DNA of 64,000 bases from Funiculus sociatus GB2-C1 (lineage in GTDB: Bacteria > Cyanobacteriota > Cyanobacteriia > Cyanobacteriales > FACHB-T130): assembly GCF_039962115.1 (NCBI RefSeq), contig NZ_JAMPKJ010000002.1, positions 124,001 to 188,000 of the forward strand, in the 5' to 3' direction. This document shows positions 443-23,929 of the stretch, piece after piece. The stretch's first letter is position 1, and each line of letters begins with the position of its first letter. Below the pieces are notes generated by a model. The model saw only the letters and a program-made list of their open reading frames with translations. It had not been told where the DNA came from and did no database searches. The translations under genes were made by a program, and so were the position numbers.

Positions 443-3400
443 TTACTTTTGACTTTCTGTTGCTACAGGTTGTACTAAAGATTCTTGCTGCTGGGGTGGT
501 GCAACTTTTTGTCGCCCAAAGCCGCCAAATAGCTCGTTTACCTTCAGCGTCAAACCGAAATAAATCCCACCATCTGACCGATAGCCGCTAAAATCGCGAT
601 CGTCCACACTACCAAAGCTATATCCCAACGAAGCTCGCAAATCAGGCGTTACATAATAACCCGCTTCTACAGCAAAACCTGTTTCGTTGAAATTCACATC
701 CGGCTGACCAATCCAGCGTCCTTCTCCCGCTATATCCCAGCGATAGCCCAATCGATAAGTCACCCGCATTTGTGTTAAAAACACGATGGAAGAATTGCTG
801 AAGTTGTTGGATAAATAAGTTTCGCTTTGGCGCACCGCCCCTTTACCGTAAAATTCCCACCGCCAGGAAGGAGCATATATCGCCTCAGCAGCAAAAACGT
901 GATCTGTGTATCCCGTACCAGTTCCTAACAGCAATGTTTCAGGAATTGTTGAAGGATTACGGCGATATTCATAGCTGAGTAAAGCGTTAAATTTATCCGA
1001 AACTGGGTTGCGGTAAGCCATGCCCAGCTTGATATCTACCGTATCTCCCAATGCCCGTAATAATTGGTTTGCGCCATTGGCTTGTTGATAGCGGAACAAA
1101 GCAGTTAGAGAAGGTGAAAGTTTCCCAGCAGCACCCGCAGCGATAACAGTATTGTTACCACCAGATCCGGTACGATGTTCGACGCGGGCGGATGCTTGGA
1201 AGTTGGGGTTATCAGTGTATTCCAGTCCCACACTGTAGGCATCGCCGCCGATAATCCCTAAAGCAGAGGCACTTTGACCTGTGGCATAGGGTTGGGCAAA
1301 TCGTTGTCCAGCAGCAGTGCGCCCAAATTGGTCGCTGAAGATATGCTCGTAACCAAGCAGGACTCGTAAACCTGGGGCGATTGCCCAGGTATGATTTAAA
1401 CCGACGGCTCCCTGACCAGTGATGCTGTTGAAGCCGCTAATAATCGAGTAGCGACCTGTGATGGAGGTGTTTTCGCCTAGTTTCTGTTCGACGATTGTGT
1501 CTATGCTGCTAATCGAGTCGCGCCCAAATACTCTTGTATTTACAAATTGGTGGGCGAGTCGCAGGCTAACGCCTTTCATTACCTCGTAGTCGAGTCCGAA
1601 AGTAGTGCGATTGGGATAAAGCGGGTCGCTGTCGTCTAGGTTTAGCTCGTTTTGGGCGCGGAAGGTGAGGGCGCGACTCAGGGGAATGTTGGCGCGGGAG
1701 ACGATTTGGCTGGCATCACTGTCGAAGGTATCGCCAAGGCGATCGTCGCGGGAGCGATTGACGTATTCTAGGCTGAGATCGGCAGCACCAAATCTTTGCA
1801 AAACCCCTGCGCGGATGGTGGTGAGGGAGTTATCGACTCGTTCTCCTGGGATGGGTTGGGGTTGGGGATCGAAGATGTCGAAAAAGTTGATCCTTTCGGC
1901 GGGAGCAATGCCAAAGTTAATTTCGTGGTCGTAGCTAGCACTTACCTGGATGCTGGTAGTAACTTGGGTCGCGACGCTAGCGCCGTATCTAGTTTGTCCG
2001 GGGGTGAAGCTGGTGGTAGCGTTGTTGGCAAAGCCTTCTTCCACCGAACGGTAATAACCACGGGCTAAGATAGTACGAGCGATCGCACCATATGCTTCCA
2101 ATCGATAGGCATTCCCTGTCACATTCCCTAAAAAGGGATTGTTGTTCCTTGAGTGGGCATATTCCCCAACAATTTGCCCGTCTTTCCCCAAGGGGACTAG
2201 GAAATCTGCCCCATACAGTTCAAAATCTTGCGCCCCTTCGTCTTGTCGCCAATAACTCGCCCCCAGCCAACTTTGTTGCCCAAACTCTTGCGAGAAATTA
2301 TATTGCAAGCGCCCAGCATAGATATTCGTGCTGTCCCCTGGTGTAGCTTCATGCTGGTAAGTCACCACAATTCGCCGCACCTGAGTGACACCAAAGGGGT
2401 CAAACTCTGTAGCGAAGACGGGACGGCGGAACAGCAGTGTCCCCCGGTCGTAGTCAATTTCGTAGTCTGCACCGCGAAATAGTTGTTTGCGCGATGTAAC
2501 GGTTCCGGGGCGATTAATTTCCTCTGTTTCTACAAAAACGTTTTCGCTGCCAGGAATCAGCAGGCGGCGGGAGAGAAAGTAATAGCCGCTGGTGCCGCTC
2601 GGAGCAATGGTGTCTCGCTGGAAGCCTTCGACATCCGGGCTATACAGGGCAGTAATTTGTAAATTACCCAGGTTGTAGTTGCCCTTGAACCCGTGCAGTT
2701 GACGATTAGTGGCGCTATATAGTTGGGAGGCGCGGGAAAATTCTGTGGTATTGTAGTCGCCCCACATCCCATAGTCTGGTTCGGAACCCGGAACTGGAGA
2801 AGTACGTTCCATCCGCAGATAGACGCTATCTGTAGAGGGGGTTAGATAATCGACTGTGGAGCTATCGCCGTAGACGGGATATTGTTGTTCGCAGAATTGG
2901 GGGCCTCGGAATAGGCGAGTGATGCCATCGCAGGTTTCGTTGAGGTTGCGGGCGCTATTATATGCTCCTGTAAATAGCCATTCCCCTACTTTGCCTGTGG
3001 CGAAGACAGCGGCGCTCAAATCGATGCCCATGCCTTCGTCGATGGTGTCGGGATCGAGGAAATCACGACGAGAACCCCAGTAATTTGTACCTCTAGAGCC
3101 AATCCGTAAATTTATCACGCCCGAAGCTATGGAAGGGCGCAGGTTGGTAATAAATTCTACCTGGGTAAAAGTTTCTAATTCATTGGTGTAGCTTGCCTGT
3201 TTAGTGGGTAATAAGTAGTCGCTTTGGGTAGGTAATCCTACTTGCGGATTGATTGGGCGATCGCTTTGTCTAGGTAATCCACCAACTTCAGGACTGATGG
3301 CTCGATTTTCAGTCAAAGGCGGCAATGCTGTTGGTGTGGAGCTATTTTCTTGCGTCCGATTGATTTCCTCGATCCGTTCTCGTTTCTCTGTGGTAGTTGT

Positions 3401-4564
3401 GGCAGCACGAATGCGGACTTTTTGAGCTTCTAAACCGGATTGCAGTTCGGCGGCAAATTGTCCTTCCTTGGCAACGACCTGAAATCCGGGTAGGTCTTTG
3501 TCGTCGTCAGCACCAATAAATTTACCCGCACTGGCAGTTAAAGTTACTACCGCATCTTGGCGGATTAATTCTCCGTTTTCATCGGTGATTCTGCCTTCCA
3601 GCTTAATTGTGGAACGACCATCAGCGCGAACGCGGGCATCTCCCACTGGAGATATTTCTATGCGCTCGGTTGTGTCTTTAACATTTAATTGGAGAGTAAC
3701 TGGCGTGCCTTGTGCAGCTTGGATGGCGATCGCGTTCTCGCCTTTCTCCAAAGGAATGTTATACCAAACCTGAGTAGTGATATTCTGTGCCTCATTTCGC
3801 TCAACACTAGAGCGAATTTTAGGATCGAGAGGCTTGTTGTTGACGGTGACTTGTATCTGAGACTGGGAATTGTACTGAACTACAAGGTTAGTGGAACGCG
3901 CTCCTATTTCTTTACTCTTGGGGGCAAGAATCCGGACTTCTGTGGGTGATAAAGTGCTTTCATTGCCGGATTCTTCAGCTTGAGCATTAGTTGGCGATAC
4001 AGATTCCCTTAGTTCACTATTAGTTGGCGCTTCCTTTGTAGAATCCTGTGTTTCCTGGGGAATCGGGTTGCTGGGCGATTCGGATTGAGCTAACTTTTTA
4101 ACTTCTGTTTGATTTCCTTGTTTCCCCTCAAAACGCGGAGAAGATAAAGACGCTTCCTGCAAAAATTCGGGTAAAGCCGCTGGTGTTGAAGCCTGCGTTT
4201 GTTGAGGTAGAGATTCACTTTGCAATAGCAAGTTTAGCGGTAGCGTTGCTGTGTCTGACCCCTCCCCAATCGCTTCCTGAAGTCCGTAAAGAGGCAACGT
4301 TTGGGGTAAATTCTCTGCTGGTAAAACTTCTAAATTCTCTGTTGTCGCTTCTTCGGTAGCCGTCTCCTCAGCAATGGGAGAGATATCTGAATCCTGAATC
4401 TCAAACTCTGAATCTTTCTTTGCTCCGTCCGAAGATTGTACAGGTAGTTCATCAGCCTTAACAGATCGGGGAAGCAGAAAATAAACTGTAAAAACTAAAA
4501 ACAAAGAAAAGGAAGAAAAGATTTTTTCTTTTGCTTTGGCATGATTGCCTTTTGCCTTATTCAT
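443..4564 (-). CDS. Large outer-membrane beta-barrel protein with Big_1-like domain
   Basis: A 1373-residue protein with a basic N-terminus and hydrophobic signal segment (about residues 14-37). A Ser/Thr/Glu/Pro-rich spacer follows to about 240, then an Ig-like region. At about 295-400 (ARVRADGRSTIKLEG, DAVVTLTASAGKF) it resembles invasin/intimin Big_1 domains. From about 490 to 1345 it is a long series of alternating amphipathic, aromatic-rich strands typical of an outer-membrane barrel. No TonB plug, POTRA or Omp85 signature is evident. The ATG overlaps the stop of the upstream DUF11 gene (ATGA), so the two are translationally coupled. Function is unknown; a surface anchor or export pore for its operon partners is inference. 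Confidence 0.8.
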   Translation of the reverse strand: MNKAKGNHAKAKEKIFSSFSLFLVFTVYFLLPRSVKADELPVQSSDGAKKDSEFEIQDSDISPIAEETATEEATTENLEVLPAENLPQTLPLYGLQEAIGEGSDTATLPLNLLLQSESLPQQTQASTPAALPEFLQEASLSSPRFEGKQGNQTEVKKLAQSESPSNPIPQETQDSTKEAPTNSELRESVSPTNAQAEESGNESTLSPTEVRILAPKSKEIGARSTNLVVQYNSQSQIQVTVNNKPLDPKIRSSVERNEAQNITTQVWYNIPLEKGENAIAIQAAQGTPVTLQLNVKDTTERIEISPVGDARVRADGRSTIKLEGRITDENGELIRQDAVVTLTASAGKFIGADDDKDLPGFQVVAKEGQFAAELQSGLEAQKVRIRAATTTTEKRERIEEINRTQENSSTPTALPPLTENRAISPEVGGLPRQSDRPINPQVGLPTQSDYLLPTKQASYTNELETFTQVEFITNLRPSIASGVINLRIGSRGTNYWGSRRDFLDPDTIDEGMGIDLSAAVFATGKVGEWLFTGAYNSARNLNETCDGITRLFRGPQFCEQQYPVYGDSSTVDYLTPSTDSVYLRMERTSPVPGSEPDYGMWGDYNTTEFSRASQLYSATNRQLHGFKGNYNLGNLQITALYSPDVEGFQRDTIAPSGTSGYYFLSRRLLIPGSENVFVETEEINRPGTVTSRKQLFRGADYEIDYDRGTLLFRRPVFATEFDPFGVTQVRRIVVTYQHEATPGDSTNIYAGRLQYNFSQEFGQQSWLGASYWRQDEGAQDFELYGADFLVPLGKDGQIVGEYAHSRNNNPFLGNVTGNAYRLEAYGAIARTILARGYYRSVEEGFANNATTSFTPGQTRYGASVATQVTTSIQVSASYDHEINFGIAPAERINFFDIFDPQPQPIPGERVDNSLTTIRAGVLQRFGAADLSLEYVNRSRDDRLGDTFDSDASQIVSRANIPLSRALTFRAQNELNLDDSDPLYPNRTTFGLDYEVMKGVSLRLAHQFVNTRVFGRDSISSIDTIVEQKLGENTSITGRYSIISGFNSITGQGAVGLNHTWAIAPGLRVLLGYEHIFSDQFGRTAAGQRFAQPYATGQSASALGIIGGDAYSVGLEYTDNPNFQASARVEHRTGSGGNNTVIAAGAAGKLSPSLTALFRYQQANGANQLLRALGDTVDIKLGMAYRNPVSDKFNALLSYEYRRNPSTIPETLLLGTGTGYTDHVFAAEAIYAPSWRWEFYGKGAVRQSETYLSNNFSNSSIVFLTQMRVTYRLGYRWDIAGEGRWIGQPDVNFNETGFAVEAGYYVTPDLRASLGYSFGSVDDRDFSGYRSDGGIYFGLTLKVNELFGGFGRQKVAPPQQQESLVQPVATESQK

Positions 4565-5478
4565 GGCTGCCCCTCGCCATACGCGGGTGTCACTCCGAAA
4601 TTCATTCTTACCAGTCCTCCTGGTTGCAGCTGCACCAAGCGAGACTGACTATTGCGCTCAATAAAGCGTTTGTTTGGAGCCAGCGTGTATCCCGGCAGAC
4701 TGGTTAAGTCCAGAGTGCCTGTACGATAACCGGATAGCACATTGGCTAGAGAAAACAGCCCATTGGCATCGGTGGTGATGCGGTTGCCGTCATCCATAAA
4801 AATCACGGCATTTGGCACTCCAGGCTCTCCTGGCTGCTGTTCGCCGTCAAAGTTTTTATCGACAAATACCCGCCCAATTAGGGTGCCGCAGTCTGATAAA
4901 ATTCCGGGTCTAATGCGTAGCTGATGCGTGGCGATGTTGCTCCTGGCTTCCTGAGCTTGATTTTTCCCGTCACCCCGCACTGCGTCTGGTGTCACTACGG
5001 CGGCATAGACAATGTTCAATGTCTCATTGGGAGCCAATCTGGGATAAATAAAGGTAACTGTCCGGTTAGAGGTGCTAGCTGGCTGTAATGTTACTGGAGT
5101 AGTTGAGGTGCCAGTGGAGAGAGAGCCTTGCAAAGCTTTAGGCAAATATTGCAAACCGACAGGCAGTTTGTCTGTGATGACAATGTTGTTGGCGGCTGCT
5201 GTACCAGTATTTTTCAGCGCGAGGCGGTAGATAACGGTATCGCCCGGTTCAGCTGCGGCGCGATCGCCTGTTTTAATCAACTCTAATACAGCTTGTCCTG
5301 CTGTAAGCGTTGTTTGATTCGATTGCACGCCGCCTGGTGGCAGATTGTCACCATTAGCTGAAGCTGAATTTAAGATTTCAACTGAGCCAACAGGTAACGA
5401 CTGATAGGCAACCGAACAAGTCAATATGACTGTTAGAGGTAGGTAGATACGCTCTAACAGATTTAACAGGTATTTCAT
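4561..5478 (-). CDS. Exported DUF11 / SdrD_B-like domain protein
   Basis: Read from ATG 5478 (305 residues); a TTG two codons upstream is less likely. An N-terminal hydrophobic segment (LLERIYLPLTVILTCSVAY) suggests export. Residues about 60-170 match DUF11 (GDTVIYRLALKNTGTAAANN, then ITDKLPVGLQYLP). Residues about 200-275 look like an SdrD_B/prealbumin-like domain (GTLIGRVFVDKNFDGEQQPG, TDANGLFSLANV). Such domains form beta-sandwich stalks on bacterial surfaces. It is the first gene of the operon with the barrel protein and the CSLREA protein. Its exact role is unknown. Confidence 0.8.
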   Translation of the reverse strand: MKYLLNLLERIYLPLTVILTCSVAYQSLPVGSVEILNSASANGDNLPPGGVQSNQTTLTAGQAVLELIKTGDRAAAEPGDTVIYRLALKNTGTAAANNIVITDKLPVGLQYLPKALQGSLSTGTSTTPVTLQPASTSNRTVTFIYPRLAPNETLNIVYAAVVTPDAVRGDGKNQAQEARSNIATHQLRIRPGILSDCGTLIGRVFVDKNFDGEQQPGEPGVPNAVIFMDDGNRITTDANGLFSLANVLSGYRTGTLDLTSLPGYTLAPNKRFIERNSQSRLVQLQPGGLVRMNFGVTPAYGEGQP

Positions 5479-6417
5479 CAGCAAAGATAACTAAATAAAA
5501 CACCCCATTGCTGGACTGTTCAAGAATTTGAGGCGTAGATTACCTGATGATTTATAACAATAGAACCCGATGAAGTGAAAGTTTAACATGACCAGGTTGC
5601 TACGACAATATATCTGGAATTTATTTGCTCCGCAAGAGGATTTTCTGAGCCGTTTAAAATCTTACACTAAAGTTATTGCTTCTGCTTTGAGTTAAATTTC
5701 ATACTTTCAACAGTTATAAGAACCTGTGCCTTGTTTTGGTTCGGCTGTCTTGATGGCAGCAGATTCAAAGACAAGGTAGAAAGCGATCGCTTTATCCCTA
5801 CGGAAGGCTATAACACCAATGAAGCTTCTAGCGTAGCATGACGAACATCAACCTCCGGTAAGTACATACTTAGGTACTAATACACCATAATTGCAATTGG
5901 TGGCAAATTTTCGACCCCCTGTAATAGTAACCGCCGCTGGGATCGAGAACTAAACAGACGGATATAATATTAACACCTATCCAGAGAATTAGATGCTTGG
6001 GCTCAAGATTAAGAATTATTTCAAGGTAACTTGCAGCTCAAGATAACAATAGCCTAATTTACTAAAATTCAGCCAAATTGCTGATTTTGTAGGCTGTTTT
6101 ATCAGCAATTTGGCTGAACTAATTGTTATGTTCTTTGGTATGGAATATCACAACAAAATGCCAAAAAAGTACCTATTTTGGGGAAAATTAGTAATCTTTG
6201 AGTAACAAATGAGAGTAATAGCAATACTTCTGGCTTAACCTTAAAGGCGCAGCTACACGGACAAAGGCTGCTGAAGTTGCAGTAAGGTTTGTATTTTTAG
6301 CTTTAAGTGAACGATATTGACCAATACCCTTAAAATATTGCTCTATACAGGGAATGGCATTTAATTGGCCTAAACTCGAAATAAATTTCTGCCTCTGCTT
6401 GTGTCAGTGACATTCTT
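5479..6417. other. Gene-free, repeat-containing intergenic stretch
   Basis: No convincing gene is visible here. The DNA is AT-rich with scattered HIP1 octamers and contains a perfect 18-bp inverted repeat at 6068-6118. The promoter of the surface-protein operon should lie at the left end, upstream of 5478, but I cannot single out -35/-10 boxes. Confidence 0.5.
6068..6118. repeat. Perfect 18-bp inverted repeat, 15-nt loop
   Basis: The arms at 6068-6085 and 6101-6118 (TTCAGCCAAATTGCTGAT and its complement) are perfectly complementary. No T-run follows on either strand, so it is not a standard intrinsic terminator. A strong hairpin in RNA or a short mobile palindrome are both possible. Confidence 0.7.
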
Positions 6418-6527
6418 CTATACAGCGCTGTTCGGGTGAGTGAGATACACAGATCCCCGACTTCTCCAAAAAGTCTAGGATCTCTCCACATAGCCTGTAC
6501 TTCATCCGACTGCAAGCCGCTGTATAG
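6418..6527. mobile_element. MITE-like element, 10-bp terminal inverted repeats
   Basis: CTATACAGCG at 6418-6427 and its exact complement at 6518-6527 bound a 110-bp segment without a believable gene. The size and ends fit a non-autonomous miniature element. It lies directly next to another dispersed repeat (6530-6616), which suggests nested insertions. Confidence 0.5.
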
Positions 6528-6529
6528 CG

Positions 6530-6616
6530 TTTCTGAGTTGAGTGGAATATATCGCAGTTCTGACTTTCGGGCTACCTTGGTAGGGACATGGCATTGCCAT
6601 GTCCCTACAGATGTAT
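6530..6616 (+). repeat. Dispersed ~88-bp repeat with GTAGGGACATGGCA hairpin (copy A)
   Basis: The segment ends in the palindrome TAGGGACATGGCA/TGCCATGTCCCTA (6580-6607). It closely matches the reverse complement of 29696-29785, including the flank with GGAATATATCGC and GTTCTGA. It lies just after the ileS stop codon and could fold as a hairpin at the end of that transcript. Confidence 0.7.
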
Positions 6617-6627
6617 CGTCGCACCAG

Positions 6628-16502: not shown

Positions 16503-17006
16503 TTAGCCTTTAATTTGGTTGACCAAGTGAACAAGCTCTGGCAAAATAAGCTTCTCAATTGCAAGTCTAACGGCGTTGCTGGAACCGGGAACAGAGAAGA
16601 CCAGCTTGCTTTGATAAACGCCAGCAACAGCGCGAGATGCGATCGCCCGTGAACCAATTTCTTGATAACTCAGAAAGCGGAACAACTCGCCAAAACCAGG
16701 CAAAGTTTTTGAGAGTTCTTTCTCTAGAGCATCGTAGGTCGTGTCTCTCGGTGCGATCCCAGTGCCACCATTGAAAATTAAAGCATCTAGATCCGGGCGT
16801 TGACCTAGGGTTGCTAGCAGCGCCCGAATTTGCGTAGGTTCATCTTTGAGAAGGGCGTACTCCCCAATTGCGTGACCTGCATTTTGGAGTAACTGCTTAA
16901 TTAACTGACCGCTAGTATCTGTTTCGGGCGATCGCGTATCGCTAACGGTAATGACAGCGCAAGTTACTGTCATCCCCTTTATATCAGGGTGAGGCAGGTT
17001 AGTCAT
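16503..17006 (-). CDS. moaB: Molybdenum cofactor biosynthesis protein MoaB
   Basis: A 167-residue MoaB/Mog family protein (MPT-binding fold). Diagnostic segments are VITVSDTRSPETDTSG, FNGGTGIAPRDTTYDALEK and FSVPGSSNAVRLAIEKLILP. The family adenylylates molybdopterin before molybdenum insertion (Mog) or is a close homologue of unclear activity (MoaB). In cyanobacteria molybdenum cofactor serves nitrate reductase among others. Length is normal. It lies downstream of psb28 on the same strand, separated by a terminator-like hairpin. Confidence 0.88.
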   Translation of the reverse strand: MTNLPHPDIKGMTVTCAVITVSDTRSPETDTSGQLIKQLLQNAGHAIGEYALLKDEPTQIRALLATLGQRPDLDALIFNGGTGIAPRDTTYDALEKELSKTLPGFGELFRFLSYQEIGSRAIASRAVAGVYQSKLVFSVPGSSNAVRLAIEKLILPELVHLVNQIKG

Positions 17007-17014
17007 ACAAGCAA

Positions 17015-17054
17015 GAGTTTTGAGTTTTTAATTTCCAACCCTAACTCAAAACTC
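17015..17054 (-). terminator. Inverted repeat after psb28
   Basis: GAGTTTTGAGTT (17015-17026) and AACTCAAAACTC (17043-17054) are perfectly complementary. On the minus strand it lies between the psb28 stop and the moaB start, and an AT-rich stretch follows. Probable terminator or processing hairpin. Confidence 0.6.
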
Positions 17055-17063
17055 AAAATCTAT

Positions 17064-17399
17064 TTAGGATTTGCTAAATTCTAAACCATTCTCTTCGGCA
17101 TACCGCTGCATGAAGCGCATAAAGCGATTCCATTCATCTTCTGACTTCATCAGGTAAACCGCTTGTAAATCTCTAGCTTGACCATTGACAAATATGCCTT
17201 TGACTTCTCTGGTCACTATTTCGCCTTCTTCGTCAATCATGTACATCCCGGTGATTTCTTCCGCGCTTTCGCTGTTGAAGGCGTTGGGAGTTTGAAAATA
17301 AAACGTCGCAGTACCTTGATTGCCATCCCGCGAACGGGTTAGCTTTACATCCGGTATAACTTCTTCTTTGAGTCCTCTGGCAAACTGAATTTCCGCCAT
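17064..17399 (-). CDS. psb28: Photosystem II assembly protein Psb28
   Basis: A 111-residue cytosolic-side assembly factor of photosystem II that binds CP47-containing intermediates. The sequence is highly typical: [20 protein letters not shown], then [31 protein letters not shown] and [19 protein letters not shown]. Full length, no signal peptide. It is transcribed away from aroF; its promoter must share the 17400-17550 region with the aroF leader. Confidence 0.97.
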
Positions 17400-17555
17400 A
17401 ATGGTACGACTAAATTTTTATAATGGTCAATTTAATATCATCTCATCATTTAGAAGAGAACTGCACTGTCTAGCTTCTACTGGCTTGGGCTGATTCCAAA
17501 AAGTAGTTGTAGGGTCAATGTGGGATCGGGCAGACCTAACCGCTCTCATAACCTC

Positions 17556-17584
17556 TTGACACCGCCCGATCCCTCTGCTAACGT
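17556..17584 (+). promoter_or_regulatory. Candidate promoter of the aroF leader transcript
   Basis: TTGACA at 17556-17561 is followed after 17 bases by TAACGT (17579-17584), a weak -10. Transcription from here would start about 40 bases before the first leader frame. Overlapping it is a perfect 10-bp inverted repeat (GGGATCGGGC at 17522-17531 and its complement at 17564-17573) that could be an operator. The -10 match is poor, so this is tentative. Confidence 0.35.
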
Positions 17585-17632
17585 CAATGGTTAAAGGTAT
17601 GTAATAAATTTTCAGATTTATAGGTCTTACAA

Positions 17633-17686
17633 ATGTTCAGCAGCAGTTTTTACTTTTATTGGTTTAACGCGGTTCACCGGGAGTGA
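17633..17686 (+). CDS. Leader peptide 1 of aroF, rich in Phe/Tyr/Trp
   Basis: An ATG-to-TGA frame of 17 codons reads MFSSSFYFYWFNAVHRE. Seven of 17 residues are aromatic, six of them consecutive (codons 6-11, 17648-17665). An AGG lies 8 bases before the ATG. Codons 13-15 (GCG GTT CAC, 17669-17677) form the 5' arm of an alternative hairpin that would disrupt the following terminator. Composition, position and overlap with the switch all point to a regulatory leader rather than a functional protein. Not seen as a named family. Confidence 0.75.
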   Translation: MFSSSFYFYWFNAVHRE

Positions 17687-17746
17687 ATCCAATGTCCCCA
17701 TTGGAACCGCCTAGTGAACCGCAGAACAAACTCTGCGGTTTTTTTT
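17669..17746 (+). promoter_or_regulatory. Attenuator 1 of aroF: antiterminator and terminator
   Basis: Terminator: AACCGCAGA (17717-17725) pairs with TCTGCGGTT (17732-17740), followed by a long T-run. Antiterminator: GCGGTTCAC (17669-17677) pairs perfectly with GTGAACCGC (17714-17722), consuming the terminator's 5' arm. A small hairpin CCAATG/CATTGG (17689-17704) sits in the loop of the antiterminator. A ribosome finishing leader 1 would cover the antiterminator arm and allow termination. A ribosome stalled in the early aromatic codons would leave it free and allow read-through. Confidence 0.75.
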
Positions 17747-17775
17747 GTTTTTTCAAGGATTGGATTTTAATCGTG

Positions 17776-17838
17776 ATGACCTATTTCAGTAGCTGGTTTT
17801 ATGGCTTTTACTTTTGGCCCAGAGCAAATTCCGGGTAA
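17776..17838 (+). CDS. Leader peptide 2 of aroF, rich in Tyr/Phe/Trp
   Basis: A second ATG-to-TAA frame, 20 codons, encodes MTYFSSWFYGFYFWPRANSG: nine aromatic residues of 20, including two Trp. It begins 30 bases after the T-run of attenuator 1. Its last codons (end of AAT, TCC, GGG; 17829-17835) are the 5' arm of the second antiterminator. The Shine-Dalgarno is weak (TGGA 11 bases upstream). TTCAGTAGC here resembles TTCAGCAGC of leader 1, so the two leader units may be an old tandem duplication. Confidence 0.78.
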   Translation: MTYFSSWFYGFYFWPRANSG

Positions 17839-17904
17839 ATAGCGTCATGTCGATAAATCGTCCAGCGCCCGGAACTTGCAATCAGGTTCCGGGCTTTTTG
17901 TTTT
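17829..17904 (+). promoter_or_regulatory. Attenuator 2 of aroF: antiterminator and terminator
   Basis: Terminator: GCCCGGAAC (17867-17875) pairs with GTTCCGGGC (17886-17894), then TTTTTGTTTT. Antiterminator: TTCCGGG (17829-17835), inside the last leader-2 codons, pairs perfectly with CCCGGAA (17868-17874), the terminator's 5' arm. The terminator ends 37 bases before the aroF start codon. The arrangement repeats the logic of attenuator 1. Confidence 0.8.
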
Positions 17905-17940
17905 GTCAACATCACATTTTTTTCTAAGGAGAATCGAACC

Positions 17941-18831
17941 ATGATCAACGCTAAACTTGCCTCACAATCTCACTCTAATCACCAAACCGTTGTCAAACTT
18001 TCCGAAAAAGTCAGCTTCGGTGGAGAAGACGTGGTTATTATCGGCGGCCCCTGTACAGTGGAAAGCTGGGATCAGATGGAAACTGTTGCTAGTCATCTCG
18101 CCGCTGCACCCGTTCAGGCTTTGCGCGGTGGTGTCTACAAACCCCGCACCTCTCCCTATGCTTTTCAAGGAATGGGAGTGGAAGGATTGCAGATTTTGGC
18201 TTCGGTGCGATCGCGTTACTCGATCCCCGTCGTCACAGAAGTCATGTCAATTGGGCAAATAGAAGCTGTTGCGACCCATGCTGATATGCTGCAAATTGGT
18301 AGCCGCAATATGCAAAACTTCGATTTGCTAAAAGCTTTGGGAGAAGCTGGTAAACCAATACTACTCAAGCGTGGGTTAGCCTCTACTATTGAAGAATTTG
18401 TCATGGCGGCAGAATATATTTTAAGCCACGGCAATCCGGATGTGGTGCTGTGCGAACGGGGTATCCGCAGTTTCGATAACTATACGCGCAATGTGCTGGA
18501 TTTAGGCGCAGTAGTGGCTTTGAAGCAGATAACGCACTTGCCAGTCATCGTAGATCCTTCCCATGCGGTAGGTAAGCGGGAATTGGTAGCACCTTTGGCG
18601 AAGGCTGCGATCGCGTGTGGCGCAGATGGGTTAATTATTGAATGTCACCCAGAACCCGAAAAATCGGTTTCCGATGCCCGTCAGGCGCTTTCTTTAGAAG
18701 ATATGGTGAGTCTAGTTCACAGCTTAAGACCTGTAGCAGCGGCTGTCGGGCGTAATATATCTGAAGTAGGGGCGGGTTTGAAATCTGCCCCTGTTCATTT
18801 TTCTGTCAAGACTTGTGAAGCGATCGCTTAA
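17941..18831 (+). CDS. aroF: 3-deoxy-7-phosphoheptulonate (DAHP) synthase
   Basis: A 296-residue type I-beta-like DAHP synthase, condensing phosphoenolpyruvate and erythrose 4-phosphate in the first step of the shikimate pathway. Diagnostic segments: VVIIGGPCTVESWDQM, LRGGVYKPRTSPYAFQG, LLKRGLASTIEEF, VIVDPSHAVGKRELV and GLIIECHPEPEKS. Only a ~28-residue extension precedes the barrel, so the N-terminal ferredoxin-like or chorismate-mutase regulatory domain of many I-beta enzymes is absent. A strong RBS (TAAGGAGA) lies upstream. The 300-base leader with two attenuators suggests control by aromatic amino acid supply at the level of transcription. Confidence 0.95.
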   Translation: MINAKLASQSHSNHQTVVKLSEKVSFGGEDVVIIGGPCTVESWDQMETVASHLAAAPVQALRGGVYKPRTSPYAFQGMGVEGLQILASVRSRYSIPVVTEVMSIGQIEAVATHADMLQIGSRNMQNFDLLKALGEAGKPILLKRGLASTIEEFVMAAEYILSHGNPDVVLCERGIRSFDNYTRNVLDLGAVVALKQITHLPVIVDPSHAVGKRELVAPLAKAAIACGADGLIIECHPEPEKSVSDARQALSLEDMVSLVHSLRPVAAAVGRNISEVGAGLKSAPVHFSVKTCEAIA

Positions 18832-23156: not shown

Positions 23157-23929
23157 TTGTCTTTAAAGTCTCCTCATGTCCGCAGCAATAAAAGTTTTTC
23201 CCGATTTGTCCCCGACTGGCGGGGAGTTGGGACAGCAAAGGGCAAAAATTAAGGGGTAGGCGAGGGAGGGGATAGCGATCGCTAATCTCCTCTCTCGCTG
23301 AACTTGCTTATAAATATAAATCTGTTCGCCGCTCTAGTCTAGGTGGCGTACCCCCAAAAATAAAAACGCCCAACAAGAACTTGAGGGCGTCGATCATCAG
23401 GGTGCATCTACTAAATTAACTATAACCTCTCTGAGGGGTGACACCCCCCACCCCGCAATATTTGTAACAAAACTTAATATATCGCCGATAGTGGCTGCCG
23501 GTGGTAAGATTCCCGTCTGGTATCTAGCGGCTAGGGAAACCATCCTTTGTCTAAATTTCCTCTGATAACGCGATCGCTTTAAACGCTATATACAAGCAAA
23601 AAAATCAAACTCCTCTACTACTATCTTGGCGTTATGAGAGCGTTTAATTTTTTGGCTGAAGTTTTTTCTGTTTCCGTTTAGGTCAGTCATTATCGTTCTC
23701 ATTCACGCCGGTTCCTATTCGCCAAGCACTATCAAGCATAATTTTAAAATCTGATCTATACTGATTCCTCAGTGTATCTAAGTCATTAACTGATAAACCT
23801 TATCCAATTGGGTGATGACAACAGGAGGCGGCTAGAGAAAAATGAGTAATAACCGTCAGTAATGACTCTAAAAAAGCGTACTTTTTAAACGGAGTAGCGT
23901 GTATATTCTAGTTCGAGAGGTGACAGGTA
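23157..23929. other. Gene-free stretch before a small membrane gene
   Basis: I see no convincing coding frame. The stretch holds several HIP1 sites, a G-rich patch near 23250-23280, a hairpin at 23365-23391 and AT-rich DNA that should include the promoter of the gene at 23930. Confidence 0.5.
23365..23391. terminator. Short GC-rich hairpin
   Basis: ACGCCC (23366-23371) pairs with GGGCGT (23385-23390) in a 13-base loop; an A-run precedes it on the plus strand, giving a T-run on the minus strand. It could terminate a minus-strand transcript, but no gene is seen there. Confidence 0.4.

Follow-up and report, generated by a model that had tools for sequence, protein, structure and literature searches.

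Upstream of aroF, the gene for the first enzyme of aromatic amino-acid synthesis, the cyanobacterium Funiculus sociatus GB2-C1 carries two short leader frames in series, each rich in Phe, Tyr and Trp codons, each followed by an intrinsic terminator, and each able to pair its last codons with the 5′ arm of that terminator. We consider it highly likely that these are two ribosome-mediated transcription attenuators, both sensing aromatic aminoacyl-tRNA, which let aroF be transcribed only when those amino acids run short. Many cyanobacteria have the same pair, and such switches had not been reliably shown in that group. The reading rests on sequence comparison and folding, without expression data, so that the transcription start, translation of the frames, termination in vivo and the response to amino acids are inferred.

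Organization of the aroF leader

The window analyzed is a stretch of 64,000 nucleotides (NCBI RefSeq assembly GCF_039962115.1, contig NZ_JAMPKJ010000002.1, positions 124,001 to 188,000 of the forward strand), and positions are counted from its first letter. The features of the leader are as follows.

17556..17584 (+), predicted promoter: TTGACA (17556-17561), 17-nt spacer, TAACGT (17579-17584), with transcription expected to start near 17591
17633..17686 (+), leader frame 1 (LP1), MFSSSFYFYWFNAVHRE
17669..17677 (+), 5′ arm of antiterminator 1, GCGGTTCAC, inside the last codons of LP1
17689..17704 (+), small hairpin CCAATG/CATTGG inside antiterminator 1 (by eye, similar in many relatives)
17714..17722 (+), 3′ arm of antiterminator 1, GTGAACCGC, overlapping the 5′ arm of terminator 1
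17716..17741 (+), intrinsic terminator 1 (T1), followed by a U run (-15.2 kcal/mol)
17776..17838 (+), leader frame 2 (LP2), MTYFSSWFYGFYFWPRANSG
17776..17786 (+), 5′ arm of a further pairing, P2: LP2 start ATGAC(C)TATTT, which can pair with 17837-17848
17829..17835 (+), 5′ arm of antiterminator 2, TTCCGGG, last codons of LP2
17837..17848 (+), 3′ arm of P2, AAATAGCGTCAT, across and after the LP2 stop
17867..17894 (+), intrinsic terminator 2 (T2), followed by a U run (-22.3 kcal/mol)
17868..17874 (+), 3′ arm of antiterminator 2, CCCGGAA, inside the 5′ arm of T2
17941..18831 (+), aroF, a DAHP synthase of the B. subtilis type, 296 aa, catalytic domain only

The original prediction of two aromatic-rich frames, two terminators and two alternative pairings in series is confirmed to the base. 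LP1 has 7 aromatic residues of 17 and LP2 has 9 of 20, and in both modules the antiterminator arms are perfectly complementary. The gene upstream is on the other strand (17064-17399) and aroF is followed by a gene on the other strand, so the terminators belong to the aroF leader and aroF is probably transcribed alone.

Could the arrangement be ordinary terminators and chance frames, for example of an upstream gene? Terminator-like sites as such are not rare (2 found in 17000-18400, 1.5 expected by shuffling), and the comparative data therefore carry the case. Of 1355 frames of 10-30 codons in the window (both strands), LP2 ranks first (9 aromatics in 14 residues) and LP1 joint second (7), whereas among 35717 such frames in 20 dinucleotide shuffles none reached 9 and 19 reached 7 or more. 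Together with the orientation of the upstream gene and the conservation with paired changes described below, this makes a chance origin very unlikely.

Conservation of the two modules

A scan of genome contigs gave 80 aroF loci, the best 80 of 567 confirmed. Of the window plus these 80, 79 have at least 390 nt upstream; all 79 have an LP2-type frame and 76 an LP1-type frame. With further loci added, 110 have enough upstream sequence (loci L001-L003 were not counted), of which 101 carry both frames by rule. In four more the second frame was found by eye, bringing the total to 105: L101, L111 and L117 have an LP1 with an earlier stop, and L110 an LP2 with a later stop. Five carry one module, L118 having LP1 only and L055, L072, L082 and L114 having LP2 only; none lacks both. 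In L055, LP1 and the LP2 start are replaced by sequence that may resemble the end of an IS200/605 element, leaving the LP2 run and T2. It should be noted that counts of related sequences are not independent. A terminator-like hairpin with a T run was found after each of 103 LP1 and 108 LP2.

In a sample of 386 genomes of the phylum, 38 have an aroF of this type (E below 1e-120), 310 show only weaker matches (best E 2.2e-98), and 38 show none. Covariance models of the modules give strong hits in 38 genomes (R1, for module 1, E below 1e-10) and 37 genomes (R2, for module 2, E below 1e-8) of the 386. These models were built from many of the sequences they then find, so only what they find or miss elsewhere is informative. 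Of the 38 genomes with this aroF, 37 have module 1 (not G143), 37 have module 2 (not G116) and 36 have both. The one strong hit outside is genome G030 (locus L139, 1800-2160), where, by eye, a remnant of aroF lies behind an LP1 frame and a T1 that has lost its U run: leader and gene seem to decay together. R2 also gave many matches at E 1e-5 to 0.01, which we take as generic terminators, and R1 gave weak hits in genomes G339 and G377 (E 0.003 and 0.009).

The wide conservation was not part of the original prediction. Of the outcomes that would have contradicted it, those that sequence can test did not occur: orthologous leaders keep the aromatic frames and the alternative pairings, with paired changes that are clear for antiterminator 1 and weak for antiterminator 2, and the conserved promoter-like sequence lies before LP1 rather than after the terminators.

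Covariation of the alternative pairings

For covariation we used 62 of 101 distinct module-1 and 64 of 107 distinct module-2 sequences, chosen by us to thin near-identical rows. Antiterminator 1 (13 pairs, 62 loci) has 91.7% of cells paired, with a score of 0.192 against 0.104 shuffled and at most 0.047 slid, and 35 cells changed on both sides against 7.0 shuffled. The number of pairs so changed (5) is not beyond shuffling (3.4; 58 of 500). On an AroF tree, quickly built and used only for a minimum count, the pair at columns 35/74 switched between A-U and G-C at least five times, and the pairs at 37/72 and 38/71 changed type at least nine and seven times, one-sided G-U changes included. These pairs lie outside T1 and alter the non-aromatic tail of the peptide (His to Arg; Arg to Leu, Trp or Pro), so the RNA, not the tail of the peptide, is under selection. 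In L101 and L111 the frame ends just before or at the arm, yet the arm is kept. The terminators are likewise conserved (T1: 94.9% paired; T2: 95.1%, score 0.245).

Antiterminator 2 has much weaker covariation support. It is 91.4% paired across 64 loci against at most 57.6% slid, but its score is 0.119 against 0.107 slid by +1, and it has 14 doubly changed cells against 17 slid by +2. Its fold in the window is not unusual (z -1.8). The support is mostly conserved complementarity plus three pairs changed on both sides, with at least 5, 3 and 3 changes on the tree. P2, a pairing absent from the original prediction, joins the LP2 start to the stretch after its stop: 75.5% of cells are paired across 64 loci against at most 45.9% slid, with a score of 0.250 against at most 0.142. 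P2 may hide the LP2 start and hinder antiterminator 2 when no ribosome is present.

Antiterminator 1 with its inner hairpin is a long structured element (-29.7 kcal/mol, z -5.8), as might be expected of a riboswitch or a T-box that senses an amino acid or uncharged tRNA directly, the frames being incidental. However, no Rfam family reaches its gathering score in the leader, and permissive searches of the leader and of seven related loci gave only sub-threshold matches to unrelated families, with no T-box and no amino-acid leader. The third bases of the aromatic codons also behave as coding sequence (see below). We find this alternative very improbable. Elsewhere in the window, at 23359-23413 on the minus strand, there is an Rfam match to NsiR1, a nitrogen-stress small RNA, just over its gathering score (39.7 against 39 bits).

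Ribosome position and the RNA switch

In the mechanism we favor, RNA polymerase starts near 17591 and makes LP1. If charged tRNAs for Phe, Tyr and Trp are plentiful, the ribosome reaches the LP1 stop and covers the 5′ arm of antiterminator 1, T1 forms and transcription ends. If an aromatic aminoacyl-tRNA is short, the ribosome stalls in the aromatic run, the last LP1 codons pair with the 5′ arm of T1 before its 3′ arm emerges, and the polymerase goes on. The same choice is repeated at LP2 and T2, so aroF is transcribed only if both terminators are passed. That two switches in series sharpen the response, as originally proposed, stays an inference.

To model this choice, we placed a ribosome codon by codon (12 nt covered from the first base of the A-site codon) and folded what has emerged before the 3′ arm of the terminator. 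The pairing probability of antiterminator 1 exceeds one half in 93-97% of 103 loci with the A site at codons -14 to -10, in 86% at -9, in 2% at -8 and in 0% at the stop. Antiterminator 2 does so in 96-98% of 108 loci at -14 to -7, in 94% at -6, in 6% at -5 and in 0% at the stop. The aromatic codons occupy -12 to -7 in LP1 and -14 to -7 in LP2, so the edge falls two codons before the end of the LP1 run and just after the LP2 run; it moves by one codon with the assumed footprint. E. coli trpL (0.57 to 0), thrL (0.75 to 0), leuL (0.60 to 0) and, less strongly, pheL (0.40 to 0) behave alike, but in hisL the measure does not fall at the stop. With shuffled frame tails, pairing still exceeds one half in 52% (module 1) and 41% (module 2) of cases against 96% and 98% real. 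The folding test is thus supportive but weak by itself, and we lean on covariation. Equilibrium folding of complete leaders discriminates poorly: the finished terminator wins in most loci even with a stalled ribosome (window module 2: 0.98), as it does in four of five E. coli controls (not pheL), so the choice must mostly be kinetic.

The leader peptides could instead be arrest peptides in the manner of TnaC, where the nascent chain (notably WFYGFYFWP of LP2), with or without a free amino acid, stalls the ribosome at one fixed codon and that stall, rather than codon-by-codon decoding, sets the switch. The order within LP2 is indeed kept more strictly than codon counting needs, with Gly at -11 in 53 of 79 loci and Ser in 16, and Pro at -6 in 59 of 79. 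But distant loci (L110, L113, L117, L119) keep the aromatic content and not the order, Gly or Pro. A stall at Pro -6 caused by abundant ligand would free antiterminator 2 (94% of loci), which is the wrong sign for a biosynthetic gene, and LP1 tails change with the RNA pairing. Arrest peptides appear unlikely here. A protein-family search with LP2 gave no match.

It is also possible, although we give it limited weight, that the leaders work in series but not as equals: one (probably LP2) may be the sensor, and the other may mainly lower basal leak or make a short RNA or peptide with a function of its own. Single-module loci exist, and P2 was found for LP2 while by eye no counterpart was noticed for LP1. 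On the other hand, both modules keep aromatic codons, terminators and alternative pairings over the range of loci aligned. This view is compatible with the main reading rather than opposed to it.

Coding and promoter signals

In the codon runs of 103 LP1 and 108 LP2, 1325 of 1482 codons are Phe, Tyr or Trp. Third bases are pyrimidine in 588 of 594 TTN codons (TTR 6) and in 442 of 442 TAN codons (TAR 0). Phe is written TTT 567 times and TTC 21 times, the reverse of 104 aroF genes (194 and 370), and 102 of 104 loci lean this way; this bias was not noted in the original prediction. A weaker lean holds for Tyr (242 TAT, 200 TAC; genes 166, 377). The wobble-read codon may be favored because it makes stalling easier, or U-rich sequence may be favored to keep the run unstructured. 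Start codons are present in 103 of 103 LP1 and 107 of 108 LP2. LP1, however, has no Shine-Dalgarno-like core in any of 103 loci, whereas LP2 has one in 63 of 108 and aroF in 108 of 112.

A promoter-like sequence (TTGACA with at most one mismatch, 16-19 nt, TAnnnT) lies before LP1 in 102 of 103 loci, usually with the -35 about 80 nt before the frame, against 4 of 108 between the frames and 3 of 108 before aroF. Two of those four, L072 and L114, are loci without LP1, and in L114 a TTGACA promoter-like sequence lies before LP2. The count used fixed stretches of up to 140 nt and a hexamer rule chosen after seeing the promoter of the window, and a few of the 102 hits lie off the usual distance. In the window only 3 of 6 -10 bases match, and a generic promoter scan missed the site. 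An inverted repeat, GGGATCGGGC/GCCCGATCCC (17522-17573), surrounds the predicted -35 and could be an operator or chance. It is shared with L004 but is not general, as 13 of 102 loci have any such repeat of 9 or more bases.

The controlled enzyme

AroF matches PF00793 and TIGR01361, with 1vs1 as its best PDB sequence match, and lacks the ferredoxin-like domain PF18152, a feature that the original prediction had not included. Both paralogues of the same genome (352 and 353 aa) have this domain and have no aromatic leader; no such leader was seen in 11 paralogue upstream regions. A 57%-identical homologue (L132) shows two aromatic-rich stretches that do not resemble LP1 or LP2. In a rough scan of about 500 nt upstream of ten other biosynthetic loci of this genome (trpE and three relatives, pheA, leuA and a relative, tyrA and a relative, hisG), no such leader was found; one trpE relative has a short frame with three Trp but no terminator. 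PF18152 probably carries feedback inhibition in the Thermotoga enzyme, and transcription control may replace feedback here.

A more speculative possibility, which we hold only tentatively, is that the two same-signal attenuators form a widespread cyanobacterial AND gate with unequal failure modes. Module 1 would answer mainly to Phe and Tyr codons (its Trp codon sits where a stalled ribosome already covers part of the antiterminator, if the assumed footprint holds) and would default to read-through if not translated. Module 2 would answer to Trp, Phe and Tyr and would default to termination, because its start region pairs with the stretch after its stop. Together they would replace allosteric feedback for a DAHP synthase without the ferredoxin-like domain, and would imply working transcription-translation coupling in cyanobacteria.

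Relation to known attenuators

The E. coli thrL, trpL, pheL, leuL and hisL attenuators have a short frame rich in the cognate codons, then an intrinsic terminator, then the biosynthetic gene, and a stalled ribosome frees an antiterminator (for trp, see PMC3641672). One leader frame is annotated for each of these five, whereas here there are two in series, each run mixing Phe, Tyr and Trp. A large number and high fraction of regulatory codons raise the sensitivity of attenuation (PMC1183508), which fits the dense runs here. The Salmonella mgtCBR leader also has two frames in series acting on transcription of the downstream genes, and has been called a singular example (PMC3641672). There the signals differ (ATP; proline) and the structures do not resemble intrinsic terminators; here both modules carry the same kind of codons and strong intrinsic terminators. 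The tandem riboswitches of B. clausii metE have two sites expected to act as intrinsic terminators, but sense two different metabolites directly (PMC3641672). Upstream of aroF in Acholeplasma, the uORFC-13-1 motif is a predicted short upstream frame with at least one Phe codon before an apparent intrinsic terminator (PMC8632094); it is known from Acholeplasma and environmental sequences only (24 representatives), and no tandem arrangement is mentioned in the section describing it.

What appears new is the phylum, two switches in series with the same kind of signal, the three amino acids and the wide conservation. The original prediction stated that no cyanobacterial case was known, which agrees with a 2016 paper saying that there is no reliable data on attenuation in cyanobacteria (PMC4833913). 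We found none in the open literature searched, although subscription papers were mostly not covered, so that an earlier mention cannot be excluded; the main text of a paper on small RNAs of heterocystous cyanobacteria (PMC4734099) contains none of the terms sought. If the reading is correct, cyanobacteria couple translation to transcription closely enough for such control, and the leader would explain how a pathway-entry enzyme without the ferredoxin-like domain is held in check. It would also matter where cyanobacteria are engineered for aromatic products, since this leader should limit flux unless removed.

Finally, in genome G382 (locus L140, about positions 780-6620 of the locus) aroF is interrupted by an element of about 5.8 kb, with a 425-aa frame that by eye is integrase-like and a 16-bp direct repeat at both junctions, while the leader modules are intact.
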